Below are positions 5,888 to 22,422 of a stretch of 49,125 bases of DNA, piece by piece. Source of the DNA: an uncultured Flavobacteriales bacterium (lineage in GTDB: Bacteria; Bacteroidota; Bacteroidia; Flavobacteriales_D; Crocinitomicaceae). A program made the position numbers and the translations under genes. Numbering within the stretch: the stretch's first letter is position 1; each line of letters begins with the position of its first letter. The DNA lies in contig CAJXCU010000011.1 of the NCBI GenBank assembly GCA_913051935.1, forward strand, positions 1-49,125, given 5' to 3'. The notes beneath the pieces are model-generated. The model was not told where the DNA came from, ran no database searches, and saw only the letters and a list, made by a program, of their open reading frames with translations.

Positions 5888-6832
5888 CTAAAGCATAAAT
5901 CTATCGTTTTTACGTGCGAGGCGAAAACCTTTGTCTTGTATTTCTTTACACGCAAGATTTTCGATATCTAAGACAGGGTTCGTATGGTTGTAGTGAATAA
6001 AATAAATCTTATTTCTTTCCTCCTTGGACAGTTTCTTAAATAAGCTCATTGATTCCTCTATAAACGGGTGAGGGATTTCAGCAATGTTTCGATGTCCAAT
6101 TTCTTCACCGCTATAAAAAGTCCCATCAATAAACGCGTAATCCACTTTTTTGATTTCTTCCATGATGCTTTGTTCCCATTTATTCCATTTGTCAATGTCG
6201 GGAATGAATAAGGCCGTTTTGTTTTTGCCTTTAATTTTAAAACCAACAGTCTCAGAGAATTCATCCCTATGTGGCACGAGAAATGGAGTAACACTGAGCG
6301 ATTTATTTAGTGTGATTTCTTTTGATGCTTCGAGGCTTACAAGGTTAATATTAGAATTGCTTACAAGTTGACTCCAAGGGCCATTTTGTGTTAAGAATTT
6401 TCTCATTTCACTCATGACATAAACTTTGACATCTTTGCTATTCATGGCCTCTTTCCCCAGATGCATAAGTCCCGTATAATGTCCGATGTGTGCATGCGTT
6501 ATGAAAATACCATTGGGCAATTTAGAATGATTAGATACCTTTTGTAAATGGTGCAATTGGAAGGGAAAGTCCGGAGTGGCTTCAAACAAATATTGTTGCT
6601 TTGTATCGTGGTCAACGGCTCCTAGTGCAACAACCATTCTTTCCGATACTTTTCGTGCCAGTAAGTCTTTGCAACATTTTTTTTTGCATCCAATTTGAGG
6701 TGATCCCGCATCTTGTATGGTTCCAAGGACAACAAGCTCGATACCTGTATTATGCGTCTTCAGATCTTCGGATTCACCGCAGGAAAGTAAAGTGCAAAGG
6801 GCTGCAAAAAAGAAATAAGCTTTCTTTTTCAT
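5888..6832 (-). CDS. PqqB-like MBL-fold lipoprotein
   Basis: This 314-residue protein has a lipoprotein signal (LLSC, Cys18) and a metallo-beta-lactamase fold of the PqqB type. GTIQDAGSPQIGC is followed by a Cys49/Cys53/Cys54 cluster like the PqqB zinc-binding cysteines. The hydrolase motif reads HAHIGH (113-118), with Gly where most family members have Asp. FIPDIDKW and FIDGTFYS are later MBL motifs, and FIHYNHTNP lies near the C-terminus. PqqB takes part in pyrroloquinoline quinone synthesis in other bacteria, but no other pqq gene is present and this copy is exported, so that function should not be transferred. It lies 21 nt downstream of acs on the same strand, possibly in one transcript, and converges with the PNGase-like gene with 17 nt between stops. 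Confidence 0.75.
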   Translation of the reverse strand: MKKKAYFFFAALCTLLSCGESEDLKTHNTGIELVVLGTIQDAGSPQIGCKKKCCKDLLARKVSERMVVALGAVDHDTKQQYLFEATPDFPFQLHHLQKVSNHSKLPNGIFITHAHIGHYTGLMHLGKEAMNSKDVKVYVMSEMRKFLTQNGPWSQLVSNSNINLVSLEASKEITLNKSLSVTPFLVPHRDEFSETVGFKIKGKNKTALFIPDIDKWNKWEQSIMEEIKKVDYAFIDGTFYSGEEIGHRNIAEIPHPFIEESMSLFKKLSKEERNKIYFIHYNHTNPVLDIENLACKEIQDKGFRLARKNDRFML

Positions 6833-6853
6833 AGTAAAGTTGGAAAGTTATTT

Positions 6854-8752
6854 TTACGCATCTCTCCCATTCTTTATTTGTTCTACCACTTCTGGGTTTA
6901 GTAAAGTACTTATGTCACCAAAGTCAGATAGGTTTCCCTCTGCTATTTTTCTAAGTATTCTGCGCATGATTTTACCAGATCTTGTCTTGGGTAAGCCCGA
7001 AGTAAATTGAATCTTATCCAACTTTGCAATCGGACCAATTTTCGCGGATATTAGGGAGTTGATGTCCTTTTTTAGTCGCTCCGGATTGTTGATATCAGCT
7101 TTCGTTGTCACAAATCCATAGAGTGCATTTCCTTTAATATCGTGAGGAAAACCGACTATGGCTGACTCTGCTATGTCATTATGCTCATTGATCGCATCTT
7201 CAATAGGAGCGGTCCCAAGGTTATGGCCTGAAACGATAATCACATCATCAACGCGCCCTGTGATTCTGTACATCCCTTCATCATTCCGTAAGGCGCCATC
7301 TCCAGTGAAATAATACCCTGGATAAGCGCTAAAATAGGTTTCCTTATATCGTTTGTGGTCTCCCCATATTGTTCTTGCGATTGAAGGCCAGGGATGTTTG
7401 ATACAAAGTCTGCCTTCACCCTCAGAATCCTTGATCTCTGATCCCGAGTCATCCATGAGAACAGGTTGTATCCCAGGAAGCGGAGTTGTCGCATAAGTCG
7501 GGATTTGCGGGGATACATGGGGTATGGGTGAAATTAATATACCTCCCGTCTCTGTTTGCCACCAGGTATCAACAATTGGACAGTTCCCTTTGCCAATATT
7601 ATTGTAATACCATTGCCACGCCTCTTCATTGATTGGTTCACCTACGCTACCAATAACTTTTAAAGAGCTTAGCTTATACTTTTCTACATATTCGAGAGAT
7701 TCCTTTGCCAGTGCTCTGATGGCTGTTGGTGCCGTATAAAACTGATTTACTCCAAATTTATCAATAACTTCCCAGAATCGGCTAGGGTTTGGAAAAGTAG
7801 GAACCCCCTCAAAAAGAATGGAAGTAGCTCCATTTAAAAGAGGCCCATAGAGAATATAGGAATGCCCTGTAATCCAGCCAATATCAGCTGTACACCAATA
7901 AATATCACCTTTCTCATAAGCAAAAACGTTCTTGAAGGTATAAGCGGTATATACCATATAACCTCCAACTGTATGTACCATTCCTTTGGGTTTACCTGTC
8001 GAACCCGAGGTGTAAAGAATAAAAAGTGGATCCTCTGCATCCATAGGCTCGGCTTTGTGTACTTCAGAAGCATTTTTCAAAAGCTCATTCAGGTAGTTGT
8101 CTCTAGTTGGATGCATCTCAACCTCTGTCTTTGTACGTTCAGCAACAATAACACTTTGAACGCAGGGGCAATCTTTTAATGCTTCATCTACAATGCTTTT
8201 CAGATCGATTGTCTTACTTCCACGAAATCCGCCGTCTGCTGTTACGACAAGCTTACAGCTTGCGTCATTAATTCTTGCTGCCAATGCGCTTGAGGAAAAG
8301 CCTGCGAAAATTACAGAATGAATGGCACCTATTCTCGCGCAGGCAAGTACGACAATGGCCAGCTCCGGAATCATAGGTAGGTATATCGCTACGCGGTCTC
8401 TTTTTTTGACATCTAATGCCAAGAGGACATTTGCCATTTTACAGACGCGTTTATGAAGTTCGTTATATGAAATGTGTTCAGCTGTTTCAGTAGTGGCGTT
8501 TGGTTCAAAAATAAGCGCTGTTTGCGCTCCTTTTTCCTTCAGATGCCTATCGATACAGTTTTCAGTAATGTTGGTTTTTGCATTTTTAAACCAACTAAAT
8601 TCTGCATTGAACATGTCAAATTCACATACCTCCGTCCATTTTTTAGACCAGCTGAATTCTTGGGCAATTTTATTCCAAAACTCCTTCGGTCTTTCAAGAG
8701 CCTCTTGATATTGTTCCGAATATTGCGCTGCGTTATTGATTTTATATTTCAT
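6854..8752 (-). CDS. acs: Acetyl-CoA synthetase
   Basis: This 632-residue AMP-forming ligase activates acetate to acetyl-CoA through acetyl-AMP. The adenylate motif YTSGSTGKPKGMVHT, the DTWWQTETGG motif, the hinge region YRITGRVDDVI and the C-terminal PKTRSGKIMRR are intact. Lys594 in that last motif is the residue that protein acetyltransferases modify in this family. The N-terminus (about 1-90) is the usual ACAS_N domain (EFWNKIAQEFSW). Length is close to the 652 residues of E. coli Acs. The gene is divergent from the choice-of-anchor-B gene across 181 nt. No strict TAnnTTTG box was found for it, only a TATTTTTA variant on the minus strand upstream of the start. Confidence 0.97.
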   Translation of the reverse strand: MKYKINNAAQYSEQYQEALERPKEFWNKIAQEFSWSKKWTEVCEFDMFNAEFSWFKNAKTNITENCIDRHLKEKGAQTALIFEPNATTETAEHISYNELHKRVCKMANVLLALDVKKRDRVAIYLPMIPELAIVVLACARIGAIHSVIFAGFSSSALAARINDASCKLVVTADGGFRGSKTIDLKSIVDEALKDCPCVQSVIVAERTKTEVEMHPTRDNYLNELLKNASEVHKAEPMDAEDPLFILYTSGSTGKPKGMVHTVGGYMVYTAYTFKNVFAYEKGDIYWCTADIGWITGHSYILYGPLLNGATSILFEGVPTFPNPSRFWEVIDKFGVNQFYTAPTAIRALAKESLEYVEKYKLSSLKVIGSVGEPINEEAWQWYYNNIGKGNCPIVDTWWQTETGGILISPIPHVSPQIPTYATTPLPGIQPVLMDDSGSEIKDSEGEGRLCIKHPWPSIARTIWGDHKRYKETYFSAYPGYYFTGDGALRNDEGMYRITGRVDDVIIVSGHNLGTAPIEDAINEHNDIAESAIVGFPHDIKGNALYGFVTTKADINNPERLKKDINSLISAKIGPIAKLDKIQFTSGLPKTRSGKIMRRILRKIAEGNLSDFGDISTLLNPEVVEQIKNGRDA

Positions 8753-18515: not shown

Positions 18516-19181
18516 TCATTTATCTGGTTTTTCAATGACTAGTAGCGATTGACACACTGGATTGGTCATTATGATTTCTCGGGAATCTGGGAGTAAAATA
18601 CTGAAGCTAAGGTCGAAAGGCTCTATATAATTTACACGTATAAGGTCGCCAAGTTTGATGTTCTTTTTATTGAGATAATTTAGGAGCTCGAAAGAACTAT
18701 CCTTGAGCGCAGCGATGATGACTTGAGTATTTTGTCCTATTTCTGTCAGAGGTTTATAATTGTGCTTAATAATTACACCACTTTTGTTTGGAATAGGTGA
18801 GCCATGAGGGTCTGTGGTAGGAAAACCAAGAAGTTCATCCATTCTTTCAAAATATATATCGGACTTTATATGTTCAATTTGTTCAGCAATATCATGCACT
18901 TCCTCCCAACCAAAACCCATTATTTTTACTAGGAACATTTCAGTAAGCCTGTGCTTTCTGATTACGGAGGCTGCCCTTAGTCTGCCGGCTTTCGTAAGTT
19001 TGATTGGTTTGTATTTCTGATAATCGATCCAACCTTTTTCTTGTAGCTTTTTGACCATGTTATTGATCGTTGGTAGGCTAACCTCTAGTTCTTTACTCAG
19101 ATCAGTTAATGAAACTACCCCATTATTTTGGCTAAGTGCATAGAGCGCTTTTAAATAATTTTCAATTACGATTGTTGCCAT
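18516..19181 (-). CDS. mntR: MntR-type DtxR-family metal-dependent repressor
   Basis: This 221-residue regulator has the DtxR/MntR plan: a winged helix (1-70; VSLTDLSKELEVSLPTINNMVKKL), a metal-binding dimerisation domain (71-140) and a C-terminal FeoA/SH3-like domain (about 145-221). The metal site reads His77, then Glu100-x-x-Glu103-His104. DtxR has Cys at the position of Glu100, and manganese-sensing MntR has Glu, so Mn(II) is the better guess, though Fe(II) is not excluded. It is divergent from a TonB receptor, and the 82-nt gap holds a palindrome over the receptor's -7 box. Repression of the receptor, and perhaps of itself, when metal is plentiful is therefore likely. Confidence 0.85.
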   Translation of the reverse strand: MATIVIENYLKALYALSQNNGVVSLTDLSKELEVSLPTINNMVKKLQEKGWIDYQKYKPIKLTKAGRLRAASVIRKHRLTEMFLVKIMGFGWEEVHDIAEQIEHIKSDIYFERMDELLGFPTTDPHGSPIPNKSGVIIKHNYKPLTEIGQNTQVIIAALKDSSFELLNYLNKKNIKLGDLIRVNYIEPFDLSFSILLPDSREIIMTNPVCQSLLVIEKPDK

Positions 19182-19237
19182 AATTATTAAATATACGAAT
19201 ATAAATATAGTTCAATTTTTATAATACTAATAAAATT

Positions 19238-19253
19238 GTTAGATTTGTCTAAC
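19238..19253 (+). promoter_or_regulatory. Candidate DtxR/MntR operator overlapping the -7 box of the TonB receptor gene
   Basis: GTTAGATTTGTCTAAC is a perfect 6+6 bp inverted repeat with a 4-bp centre, and its arms resemble the core of DtxR/IdeR operators (GTTAG...CTAAC). The -7 element TAGATTTG (19240-19247) lies entirely inside it, 16 nt before the ATG at 19264. A bound dimer would block polymerase. Assignment to the adjacent regulator is inference from position and arm sequence. Confidence 0.65.
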
Positions 19254-19263
19254 TTTTTGAAAT

Positions 19264-21606
19264 ATGCGGCATTTTTACAAATTATTTTTCCTGAATATAG
19301 CTTTACCAATATTGGCTATTTTTAGTTTTTCTTTAGTTCATTCACAGGGAAAAATTACGGGCTATGTCTATAACGACGATGGTGCCATAGAATTTTCTAA
19401 GGTGTCTATTTCTCCTGTAAAAAAGAATGCTTTATCCAATTCAAACGGGAGGTTTGAATTTGATGATTTACCCTTCGGTAATTATGTAATAAAGATATCT
19501 TACATTGGTTATGAATCGGTTACTGATACCATTGAGGTATCTCAAATCATGACCAATGTTAACCGTAATTTTAAATTAAGTCGACCCATTATGGAGCTTG
19601 ACGATATTGTGGTCACGGGAACTAAAACATACAAGAGAAAAACGAATTCAAATGTAATTGTGAATGTACTTAGTGGTGAAAATCTTCAAGTGCTTCAATC
19701 CTGTAATGTAGCAGAAGGCCTTCGTTTTCAGCCAGGATTGCGTGTTGAAACAGATTGTCAGACCTGTAATTATACCCAGCTTAGAATGAATGGTCTGGCA
19801 GGTGGATATAGTCAAATTCTCATCAATGGGCGTCCTATTTTTAGTCCATTGACAGGTTTGTATGGCCTTGAACAGTTGCCCGTGAATATGATTGAGCGTA
19901 TTGAGGTTGTACGTGGCGGAGGTTCTTCATTGTACGGTTCAAGTGCCATAGGAGGTACTGTTAATGTGCTTACTAGACTTCCTCGCAAGAATAGTTTTGA
20001 TGTTAATTATGCCTATCAGAATATCAATGGATTGAGCTCAGACCATATAGTTAACGGAAATTTTACCGTAGTATCGAAAGAACGTGATGCTGGAATTTCC
20101 TTGTTTTTGAATGGACGAAGAAGAGAACTATATGATCACAATGAAGATGAATATTCTGAGCTACCAGAACTGAATAACAATTCTTTTGGGATAACCTCAT
20201 TTTATTTGCCGAAAAAAAATCACAAGCTTGAGCTTAGTGTGAGTAATCTAAATGAATATCGTTATGGAGGCGAAATGAGGCAAGATATAGAGACTCATTA
20301 CAGAGGTCAGGCCGAAGAACGCACTCACAATGTTTGGATGGCAAGCACTGACTATCAAATTAACTTTAATAATAATCTTTCTTCATTTATTGCTTATCTT
20401 GCTTATCAGCATACAAGACGAGATCACTACACTGGTATTTTTCCTGATGACTCCTCGGAGGTTGAGGTTCATTTATCCAATCCTCCTTATGGACTATCAG
20501 CAGTTTCTACGAGTAATATAGGTTTGCAATTTAACCATAAACTTCTCGATTTTATACTTCCAGGAACGAATGTTTTAACTTTTGGTTCTGAATATTTATA
20601 TGATTCAGTCGATGATGAAATACCAGCTTACAACTACGATATAGATCAAAGTACGCAGGATTTCGGAATATTTTTGCAAAGTGATTGGGCATTACTACCA
20701 AATTTAAATCTGCTATCTGGATTCAGAGTTGATGCCCATAATTTAGTCGACAAGTTCATTTGGAGCCCCCGCGTTTCATTACTTTATAAGCTCAAAACAA
20801 ATACTCAGTTCAGGTTGAGCTATGGGACAGGATTTAGAGCTCCCCAGGCTTTCGATACAGATCTTCATATTGCTTTTGCGGGAGGCGGTATATCTCGTGT
20901 AACGCTTTCACCTAATCTTGCTGAGGAACGTTCCGAAAGCTGGAGTGCTTCTATAAATTATGACAAACCATTTGATAAATTCATCATGGGTTTCACTTTA
21001 GAGGCTTTTCATACAAGTCTAAAAGATGCTTTCTTTTTGCAACCTAATGGGTTTGATTCTTTCGGACTTTTATTTGAAAAACAAAATGGACAAGGAGCCA
21101 CAGTTGAGGGACTGACTTTTGAGCTTAGAAGCAATTATAACAGAAAAGTTCAATTTGAATCAGGTTATACCATTCAGAAGAATGAGTTTCAAAATCCAGT
21201 CGAATATATCGATGGAATTGCACCGATCAAAAGATTTATTCGTACACCCAATCATTATGGTTTTGCTGTACTTACTTTGAATCCGAATAAATTTTTTGGT
21301 ATGAATCTCAATTATGTTTATACTGGCAGAATGCTTGTTCCACATTTTGCTGGGTCACCTAATCAAATCACAGATGAGATCGTTAATGTTGAGTCATTTT
21401 CGAATTTGAGTTTCAGGTTAAGCTATTCCGTAGAGGTGAAAAAGTCTAAATTGGTTATAGAATGGTTTGCGGGTGTAAAGAATATACTAAATGCTTATCA
21501 GGATTATTTTGATATTGGTAAGAATCGCGACAGTAATTTCGTTTATGGACCAGCGCAGCCTCGAACATTATTTGGTGGAATTAAAATTCAATCAGGAAAG
21601 CTGTAA
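19264..21606 (+). CDS. TonB-dependent receptor, candidate metal uptake
   Basis: This 780-residue outer-membrane protein has a signal peptide (about 1-27) and a carboxypeptidase-regulatory-like domain (about 30-115, GKITGYVYNDDGAIEFSKVSI). The plug domain (about 130-240) contains LRMNGLAGGYSQILINGRPIF, MIERIEVVRGGGSSLYGSSAIGGTVNV and the CQTC motif just before it. A 22-strand type barrel completes the protein. Plug and barrel resemble the BtuB/FecA/HmuR branch rather than SusC. The Cys pair in the plug may bind a metal. Control by the divergent MntR-type repressor suggests import of manganese, iron or a metal complex. No ABC or NRAMP transporter is adjacent. Confidence 0.88.
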   Translation: MRHFYKLFFLNIALPILAIFSFSLVHSQGKITGYVYNDDGAIEFSKVSISPVKKNALSNSNGRFEFDDLPFGNYVIKISYIGYESVTDTIEVSQIMTNVNRNFKLSRPIMELDDIVVTGTKTYKRKTNSNVIVNVLSGENLQVLQSCNVAEGLRFQPGLRVETDCQTCNYTQLRMNGLAGGYSQILINGRPIFSPLTGLYGLEQLPVNMIERIEVVRGGGSSLYGSSAIGGTVNVLTRLPRKNSFDVNYAYQNINGLSSDHIVNGNFTVVSKERDAGISLFLNGRRRELYDHNEDEYSELPELNNNSFGITSFYLPKKNHKLELSVSNLNEYRYGGEMRQDIETHYRGQAEERTHNVWMASTDYQINFNNNLSSFIAYLAYQHTRRDHYTGIFPDDSSEVEVHLSNPPYGLSAVSTSNIGLQFNHKLLDFILPGTNVLTFGSEYLYDSVDDEIPAYNYDIDQSTQDFGIFLQSDWALLPNLNLLSGFRVDAHNLVDKFIWSPRVSLLYKLKTNTQFRLSYGTGFRAPQAFDTDLHIAFAGGGISRVTLSPNLAEERSESWSASINYDKPFDKFIMGFTLEAFHTSLKDAFFLQPNGFDSFGLLFEKQNGQGATVEGLTFELRSNYNRKVQFESGYTIQKNEFQNPVEYIDGIAPIKRFIRTPNHYGFAVLTLNPNKFFGMNLNYVYTGRMLVPHFAGSPNQITDEIVNVESFSNLSFRLSYSVEVKKSKLVIEWFAGVKNILNAYQDYFDIGKNRDSNFVYGPAQPRTLFGGIKIQSGKL

Positions 21607-21660: not shown

Positions 21661-22422
21661 ATGTTCAAAATCCTTTTATCTCCAGCAAAATCTATATCCA
21701 AGGAACCTATTTCTTATGGTAAACCTACCGAACCTATCTTTGAAAAACAAACAATAAAGTTGGTTCAGCTTTTGAGGAAGTATTCACCCAAAGAACTTTC
21801 GTCGCTAATGTCTATATCACCTGCGTTGGCAGATTTGAATTGGTCACGCTATCAAAGTTGGAAGCCTTTGGCTGAAAGCTCATATATTATCCAGCCAGCC
21901 TTGGCATTTACTGGTGAAGTATATAAAGGTTTAGATGCTGAATCATTTTCAAAATCTGAATGGATGAGGGCCCAAGAATCGCTCCGAATCCTTTCGGGAT
22001 TATACGGAGTTTTAAAGCCCTTAGATGGTATTTCGCCTTACCGACTTGAAATGGGTACAAGATTAAAGGTAGATTCATCTAGTAATAATTTATATGAATT
22101 TTGGAAGGAGGGTCTTATAGAATCATTTATTTCTGAGCTTCATGTAAATGACGTAATCATAAATCTTGCTTCTGTCGAATATTCTAAAGTTTTAAATTTC
22201 AAATCAATCAATAATGTGACGGTAACTCCAGTCTTTAAGGATTTTAAGAATGGTAAGCTTAAAACTATCATGATGTATGCCAAAAGGGCCAGAGGTACTA
22301 TGGCGCGTTACATCATTCAAAACAACATTCAGGACTTAGGAGATCTTAAAATGGCATCTATTGATGGATACGTTTACGATGAGGGATTGTCAGATGATAC
22401 GGACTGGGTCTTTACGCGTTAA
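21661..22422 (+). CDS. yaaA: Peroxide stress protein YaaA
   Basis: This 253-residue member of the UPF0246/DUF328 family opens with KILLSPAKS and contains WSRYQSW, FTGEVYKGLDAESF, RILSGLYGVLKPLDGISPYRLEMGTRL, NLASVEYSK and AKRARGTMARYII, all typical. In E. coli YaaA limits free intracellular iron during hydrogen peroxide stress and binds DNA. The cellular role here is by homology. It follows the TonB receptor gene by 54 nt and may be co-transcribed if the weak hairpin between them does not terminate. Its 3' end overlaps the convergent DUF2452 gene by 11 nt. Confidence 0.93.
   Translation: MFKILLSPAKSISKEPISYGKPTEPIFEKQTIKLVQLLRKYSPKELSSLMSISPALADLNWSRYQSWKPLAESSYIIQPALAFTGEVYKGLDAESFSKSEWMRAQESLRILSGLYGVLKPLDGISPYRLEMGTRLKVDSSSNNLYEFWKEGLIESFISELHVNDVIINLASVEYSKVLNFKSINNVTVTPVFKDFKNGKLKTIMMYAKRARGTMARYIIQNNIQDLGDLKMASIDGYVYDEGLSDDTDWVFTR

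Follow-up and report, generated by a model that had tools for sequence, protein, structure and literature searches.

The window analysed here is a stretch of 49,125 nucleotides (nt) from contig CAJXCU010000011.1 of an uncultured Flavobacteriales bacterium, a marine organism whose 2.36-Mb genome we label G000. It hosts a divergent pair of genes with a palindrome between them. On the reverse strand lies a metal-dependent repressor of the DtxR superfamily, 221 amino acids (aa) in length (18516..19181) and identified by its Pfam domains and solved relatives. On the forward strand lies a TonB-dependent receptor of 780 aa (19264..21606), identified by Pfam and a barrel model. The two are separated by an 82-nt intergenic region with a GC content of just 13% (19182..19263), which contains the inverted repeat GTTAGA-TTTG-TCTAAC (GTTAGATTTGTCTAAC, 19238..19253), the predicted binding site of the repressor. 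A first-pass annotation of this DNA had described the locus as an MntR-type repressor with its operator over the promoter of a receptor that imports manganese (Mn) or iron (Fe), and the perfect repeat that it reported in this gap agrees with the sequence.

The palindrome and the receptor promoter

Judged from this genome only, the palindrome is mildly unusual. Shuffled versions of the gap contain some inverted arm of 6 base pairs (bp) in 80% of cases, and a 6-bp arm with at least two G/C in 0.9%. Because most shuffles of such an AT-rich gap hold a 6-bp arm of some kind, it is the G/C content alone that makes the repeat stand out. Comparison of sequences across relatives, on the other hand, confirms it as a genuine feature. 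Upstream regions of 36 of the 45 regulators from the order and from related Bacteroidota score above 9 with a motif model built from the relatives (the 99% and 99.9% quantiles of shuffled sequence are 6.0 and 11.0), and contain either GTTAGACnn(A/G)TCTAAC or TTTAGAC..GTCTAAA, a variant that is found next to ZIP-type loci. The operator described here scores 25, and the next site in the window 9.5. The first-pass annotation likened the repeat to DtxR/IdeR operators. This is true of the TTAG/CTAA half sites, but the spacing differs.

The site is also absent where the regulator is absent. Within the genus, all eight genomes with the regulator carry a perfect operator, and in all four genomes where secDF directly abuts the receptor neither the operator nor a regulator gene was found. 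Each of these four genomes has a receptor of 61-71% identity. In the receptor tree one of them (G074) is sister to a regulator-bearing genome, with support of 100/99, and the other three form a separate clade, so that the regulator-less genomes represent at most two independent events. All four are drafts, with each secDF-receptor junction inside one contig.

The position of the site relative to the promoters is regular too. The Bacteroidota -7 consensus is TAnnTTTG, and in 16 of 24 loci a box of this type, in the receptor direction, begins 20-21 nt past the site start. In many loci TTTG stands at -33, right at the left edge of the operator, which thus takes up the -33/-7 spacer. In the genus of this genome the +20/+21 box is missing, and the only TAnnTTTG match is TAGATTTG (19240..19247, forward strand), inside the palindrome at an offset of +2 from the site start (six loci of this genus are listed with this arrangement). 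We propose TAGATTTG as a candidate receptor -7 box inside the operator; its -33 partner is weak, and no good -33 box was seen. A -7 box inside the palindrome, as claimed earlier, is seen in this genus only; in other relatives the box lies just downstream of the site. In the regulator direction, relatives have TAnnTTTG at +37 to +47 from the operator, and the candidate regulator -7 box here, TATATTTA (19202..19209, reverse strand), is a TAnnTTTn match that the genus has at +44. With the likely -7 box of the regulator 37-47 nt away, on the other side of the site, the receptor should be the gene that is mainly repressed. There are no Rfam elements within the window, and hence no Mn riboswitch.

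The regulator and its metal site

The regulator consists of a winged helix (Fe_dep_repress, E-value 3e-16), a metal-binding and dimerisation domain (Fe_dep_repr_C, E-value 2e-28) and a C-terminal FeoA/SH3-like domain (E-value 6.5e-5). The two domains of the DtxR superfamily score above their cut-offs (PF01325 at 59.8 bits, PF02742 at 98.4 bits), and the FeoA domain narrowly so, at 23.4 bits where the cut-off is 23. It is the sole gene found in the genome with a Fe_dep_repr_C domain. Its best solved relatives, matched over the whole length with phmmer E-values from 4e-34 to 3e-33, are ScaR (3hrs), SloR (5cvi) and 5zr4, which we take to be a DR2539-type regulator.

The metal ligands of Bacillus subtilis MntR are Asp8, Glu11, His77, Glu99, Glu102 and His103 (PMC4805248). 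At these positions the regulator has Asn8, Lys11, His77, Glu100, Glu103 and His104. From positions and alignments we predict a primary metal site that includes Glu100, Glu103 and His104 (codons at 18870..18884, reverse strand), with Asn8 (codon at 19158-19160, reverse strand; from alignments) as another candidate ligand. The first-pass annotation correctly named these glutamates and the histidine, with Glu100 in the place of a DtxR cysteine, and it is Glu100 that speaks for its label "MntR-type". The rest of the label does not carry over: Asn8 and Lys11 replace Asp8 and Glu11, the NCBIfam MntR models score under their cut-offs, and at 221 aa with a FeoA/SH3-like domain the regulator departs from the two-domain MntR form, which has about 140 aa and lacks that domain. 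The iron site of DtxR/IdeR is not matched either, as Met10 and Cys102 are replaced by Asn8 and Glu100. Because it combines Asn8 and Lys11 with a glutamate in the DtxR Cys position, the regulator departs from both the canonical MntR and the canonical DtxR.

A better comparison is with the ScaR/DR2539-like proteins, with which it shares full-length similarity, Lys11 and His96 (the equivalent of DtxR His98); they differ from it in having Asp at the MntR Asp8 position. DR2539 of Deinococcus radiodurans has the same three domains and a DPHG motif, and it too carries Lys where MntR has Glu11 and His where DtxR has His98. This Mn/Fe-dual protein represses mntH (PMC3327659), whereas the predicted target here is a TonB receptor. 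The aligned 5zr4 chain has Asp in place of Asn8. ScaR and SloR of Streptococcus show about equal similarity over the full length, C-terminal domain included, yet in them too Asp takes the place of Asn8, and the DPHG of the regulator here is CPHG. Among relatives of the regulator, Asp at position 8 occurs only in several copies that precede a ZIP permease.

In those relatives that adjoin ZIP permeases (L083-L090 and L092) the residue at the Asn8 position is mostly Asp, a split that hints at a possible difference in metal preference between regulators linked to ZIP and those linked to receptors. Other DtxR-type sequences were also seen. In G088 a metal ABC-3 permease carries a DtxR-type regulator as a C-terminal fusion, recognised by helix-turn-helix similarity and Fe_dep_repr_C (L098:914-2188), and several frames of 420-480 aa in other relatives resemble this fusion. 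Two metagenome-assembled genomes of Flavobacteriaceae (L032 and L033, about 6620-7660) have another DtxR-like sequence, in a 345-aa frame with an apparent N-terminal membrane segment; this frame and the regulator gene overlap at the end of the latter.

The receptor and the genes behind the operator

The receptor has a signal peptide followed by CarbopepD_reg_2 (E-value 1.8e-13), plug (2.2e-20) and beta-barrel (1.5e-33) domains in Pfam. PF07715 and PF00593 both exceed their cut-offs, and PDB matches agree with the barrel model. In the AlphaFold model the barrel is confident, and the plug has a predicted local distance difference test (pLDDT) value below 50, which leaves the surroundings of the CxxC motif unreadable. 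By fold the receptor comes nearest to solved receptors for siderophores, B12 and zinc. Naming the protein as a siderophore receptor was dropped as uninformative, as the family models match under their cut-offs.

The Cys-x-x-Cys (CxxC) plug motif that had been noted for this receptor is C165-Q-T-C168 (codons at 19756..19767, forward strand). All 28 homologues compared keep both cysteines. A profile alignment places CxxC in the plug of 45/45 regulator-linked receptors versus 0/20 unlinked receptors from the same genomes, although the 45 are related by descent and are therefore not independent cases. The linked set includes a subfamily of about 25% identity in which CNVC replaces CQTC, and more distant Bacteroidota relatives have CQNC. 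In records of Bacteroides and Parabacteroides a protein of 117-126 aa that has no Pfam match precedes a CQNC receptor (L176:4443-4823, L177:4539-4892), and these loci are without a GTTAGAC-type operator.

Across 150 genomes the exact 16-mer is found 37 times and a reversed control pattern 36 times, so only the position of a 16-mer is informative. Sixteen of the 37 exact sites precede regulators of the same kind. Another precedes a gene for an Nramp-Usp fusion (G105), which carries DPGN and MPHN motifs and has MntH proteins as its nearest solved relatives. A further site stands before a binding protein-ATPase-permease operon of the ATP-binding cassette (ABC) type, with a binding protein nearest TroA (G096), and one before an unlinked CxxC receptor in a genome where the regulator is on another contig (G111). 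The TTTAGAC variant precedes a CxxC receptor of Persicobacter. As for the remaining exact sites, most fall within or close to genes of unrelated kinds, and they probably arose by chance. Gene order varies around the site: it is operator-regulator-ZIP-receptor in G106 and G123, in G088 a TroA-type ABC operon comes after the receptor, and in many relatives a ZIP permease stands behind the regulator.

The first-pass annotation proposed to look for the 16-mer before other transport genes in the genome. Relatives bear this out (the Nramp, ABC and unlinked receptor genes above), but in G000 none of the other metal-transport promoters examined has the site. Genome-wide counts are pattern searches, and the motif model was applied to selected stretches of G000. 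By pattern search GTTAGAnnnnTCTAAC has a single perfect copy in the genome. With the motif model, the TroA-type ABC operon on contig 10 and a ZIP gene show no operator site. The receptor appears to be the sole clear target of the regulon here, and an inner-membrane partner, be it the TroA-type ABC transporter or a ZIP, is predicted to be outside the control of this operator. Two other candidate sites were judged likely chance: a one-mismatch copy on contig 21 (30785), from its score of 12 and its mechanosensitive-channel-like and pirin-like gene neighbours, and TTTAGATTTTTCTAAA on contig 5, which sits within a coding frame.

Two genomes of the same genus, G003 and G081, have a short DtxR-type protein of 136 aa and one exact site each before a different TonB receptor without CxxC (L201:2308-4770, L202:2601-5063). 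In G003 an additional one-mismatch copy precedes this receptor.

Manganese uptake, alternatives and a neighbouring gene

The locus is most likely a Mn (possibly Fe) uptake switch built from known types of part, because the trio of regulator, site and receptor, and the same site before known Mn transporters, recur across relatives. More specifically, we give a probability of roughly 0.7 to a ScaR/DR2539-like repressor, loaded with Mn2+ or perhaps Fe2+, that switches a CxxC TonB receptor for Mn import. We propose that Mn2+ (perhaps also Fe2+) would load the repressor, which would then dimerise on the 16-bp palindrome and block RNA polymerase at the receptor promoter. When the cytosolic metal falls, the repressor would let go and the receptor would be made, and the CxxC-plug receptor would bring Mn, free or chelated, across the outer membrane.

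The closest parallel comes from Stenotrophomonas maltophilia, where MntR represses a CQNC-plug TonB receptor that adjoins mntR-mntH and is derepressed without MntR (PMC13217887, 2026). Joint shortage of Mn and Fe induces this receptor, and the MntR box sits between its promoter boxes (PMC13217887). Going by what is reported there and predicted here, the two modules share control of the DtxR-superfamily/MntR type, a regulator box between the promoter boxes of the receptor gene, an adjacent regulator and a CxxC at the centre of the plug; in addition, MntH is in the regulon of S. maltophilia, and the operator precedes an MntH-type Nramp among the relatives studied here. They differ in that its MntR box is a 25-bp palindrome rather than one of 16 bp, and its receptor is followed by a gene for a periplasmic thioredoxin-fold protein rather than by yaaA. 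Its authors describe synteny in Lysobacterales, Sphingomonadales and Opitutales and leave Bacteroidota unmentioned (PMC13217887); our results would extend a module of this CQNC kind to a further phylum. A search of plasmid records for the proteobacterial CQNC receptor gave only Bacteroidota relatives above 30% identity.

Other known systems share less. PgMntR of Porphyromonas gingivalis is a Bacteroidota DtxR-family regulator that binds the promoter of a Mn transporter gene, but it has an Asp19/Cys108 metal site and two FeoA domains, and it regulates FeoB2, not a TonB receptor (PMC4805248). The MnoT-type receptors of Burkholderia, as far as they are covered in PMC13217887, also import Mn across the outer membrane in a TonB-dependent manner, but are linked to TseM, a secreted Mn-binding protein. 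In the open-licence literature we found no description of a Mn TonB receptor, or of this operator, in Bacteroidota.

Manganese is our best guess for the metal because of the company that the operator keeps (an MntH-type Nramp and a TroA-type ABC operon), Glu100 and the Stenotrophomonas case, and iron is the main rival. The first-pass reading of the receptor as a Bacteroidota importer of Mn or Fe is supported in part, with Mn favoured by the neighbours of the operator. Several points weigh against our interpretation. Asn8 and Lys11 diverge from the Mn-selective site of B. subtilis MntR, the exact 16-mer is no more frequent than its reversed control, the four regulator-less genomes are drafts that amount to at most two events, and zinc or iron is a possible substrate of ZIP and TroA-type proteins as well.

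The regulator could instead be an IdeR/DtxR-like sensor of Fe2+, with a receptor that imports an iron chelate. DtxR-type folds with a FeoA domain often sense iron, His96 and Lys11 match residues of the Mn/Fe-dual DR2539 (PMC3327659), and Asn8 in the metal site points the same way. Most of the solved structures nearest in fold to the receptor are ferric-siderophore receptors, FeoB was not found in this genome, and the Stenotrophomonas receptor responds to joint shortage of Mn and Fe (PMC13217887). Yet both Met10 and Cys102 of the DtxR iron site are replaced, the Nramp and ABC genes with the same site are both Mn-leaning, and no Feo or siderophore genes turned up at the sites examined. We consider an iron switch unlikely.

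A zinc uptake system under a zinc sensor is far less probable. It would account for the ZIP permease after the regulator in many relatives, for the ZnuA/TroA-type binding protein (TroA is described in PDB as zinc-binding too), for a plug motif that is a typical zinc ligand pair and for ZnuD among the structural matches of the receptor. However, Mn or Fe is the physiological signal of DtxR-superfamily regulators, and the usual regulator of zinc uptake is Zur. Zinc is also made less likely by the Nramp among the targets and by the CQNC receptor under MntR (PMC13217887). A palindrome that arose by chance, or for unrelated reasons, in an AT-rich promoter, with the two genes paired incidentally, would suit the frequent inverted repeats in the gap and the lack of genome-wide enrichment, but is very improbable given the conservation in 36 of 45 loci, the fixed promoter spacing, the absence together with the regulator and the recurrence before metal transporters.

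A wider idea is more tentative. CxxC-plug TonB receptors might be a widespread, dedicated class for Mn import across the Bacteroidota outer membrane, marked by linkage to an Asn8-type DtxR-family sensor and by a 16-bp operator in the -33/-7 spacer, with the Cys pair capturing the metal or working as a redox gate; we rate this as somewhat less than an even chance. The passage of Mn across this membrane is largely without assigned proteins. A two-part signature, a DtxR-family neighbour with GTTAGAC..GTCTAAC and a CxxC plug, would pick candidate Mn receptors from the dozens of receptors per genome.

Downstream of the receptor, 54 nt away and on the same strand, lies a yaaA-type peroxide-stress gene (21661..22422, forward strand; PF03883, E-value 8e-80). 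It holds this place genus-wide, including in genomes without the regulator. Among the loci compared, the receptor-yaaA order is confined to the genus, which puts yaaA outside the conserved core. It is possibly a co-transcribed neighbour of the receptor, and metal import and peroxide defence could then be co-expressed.

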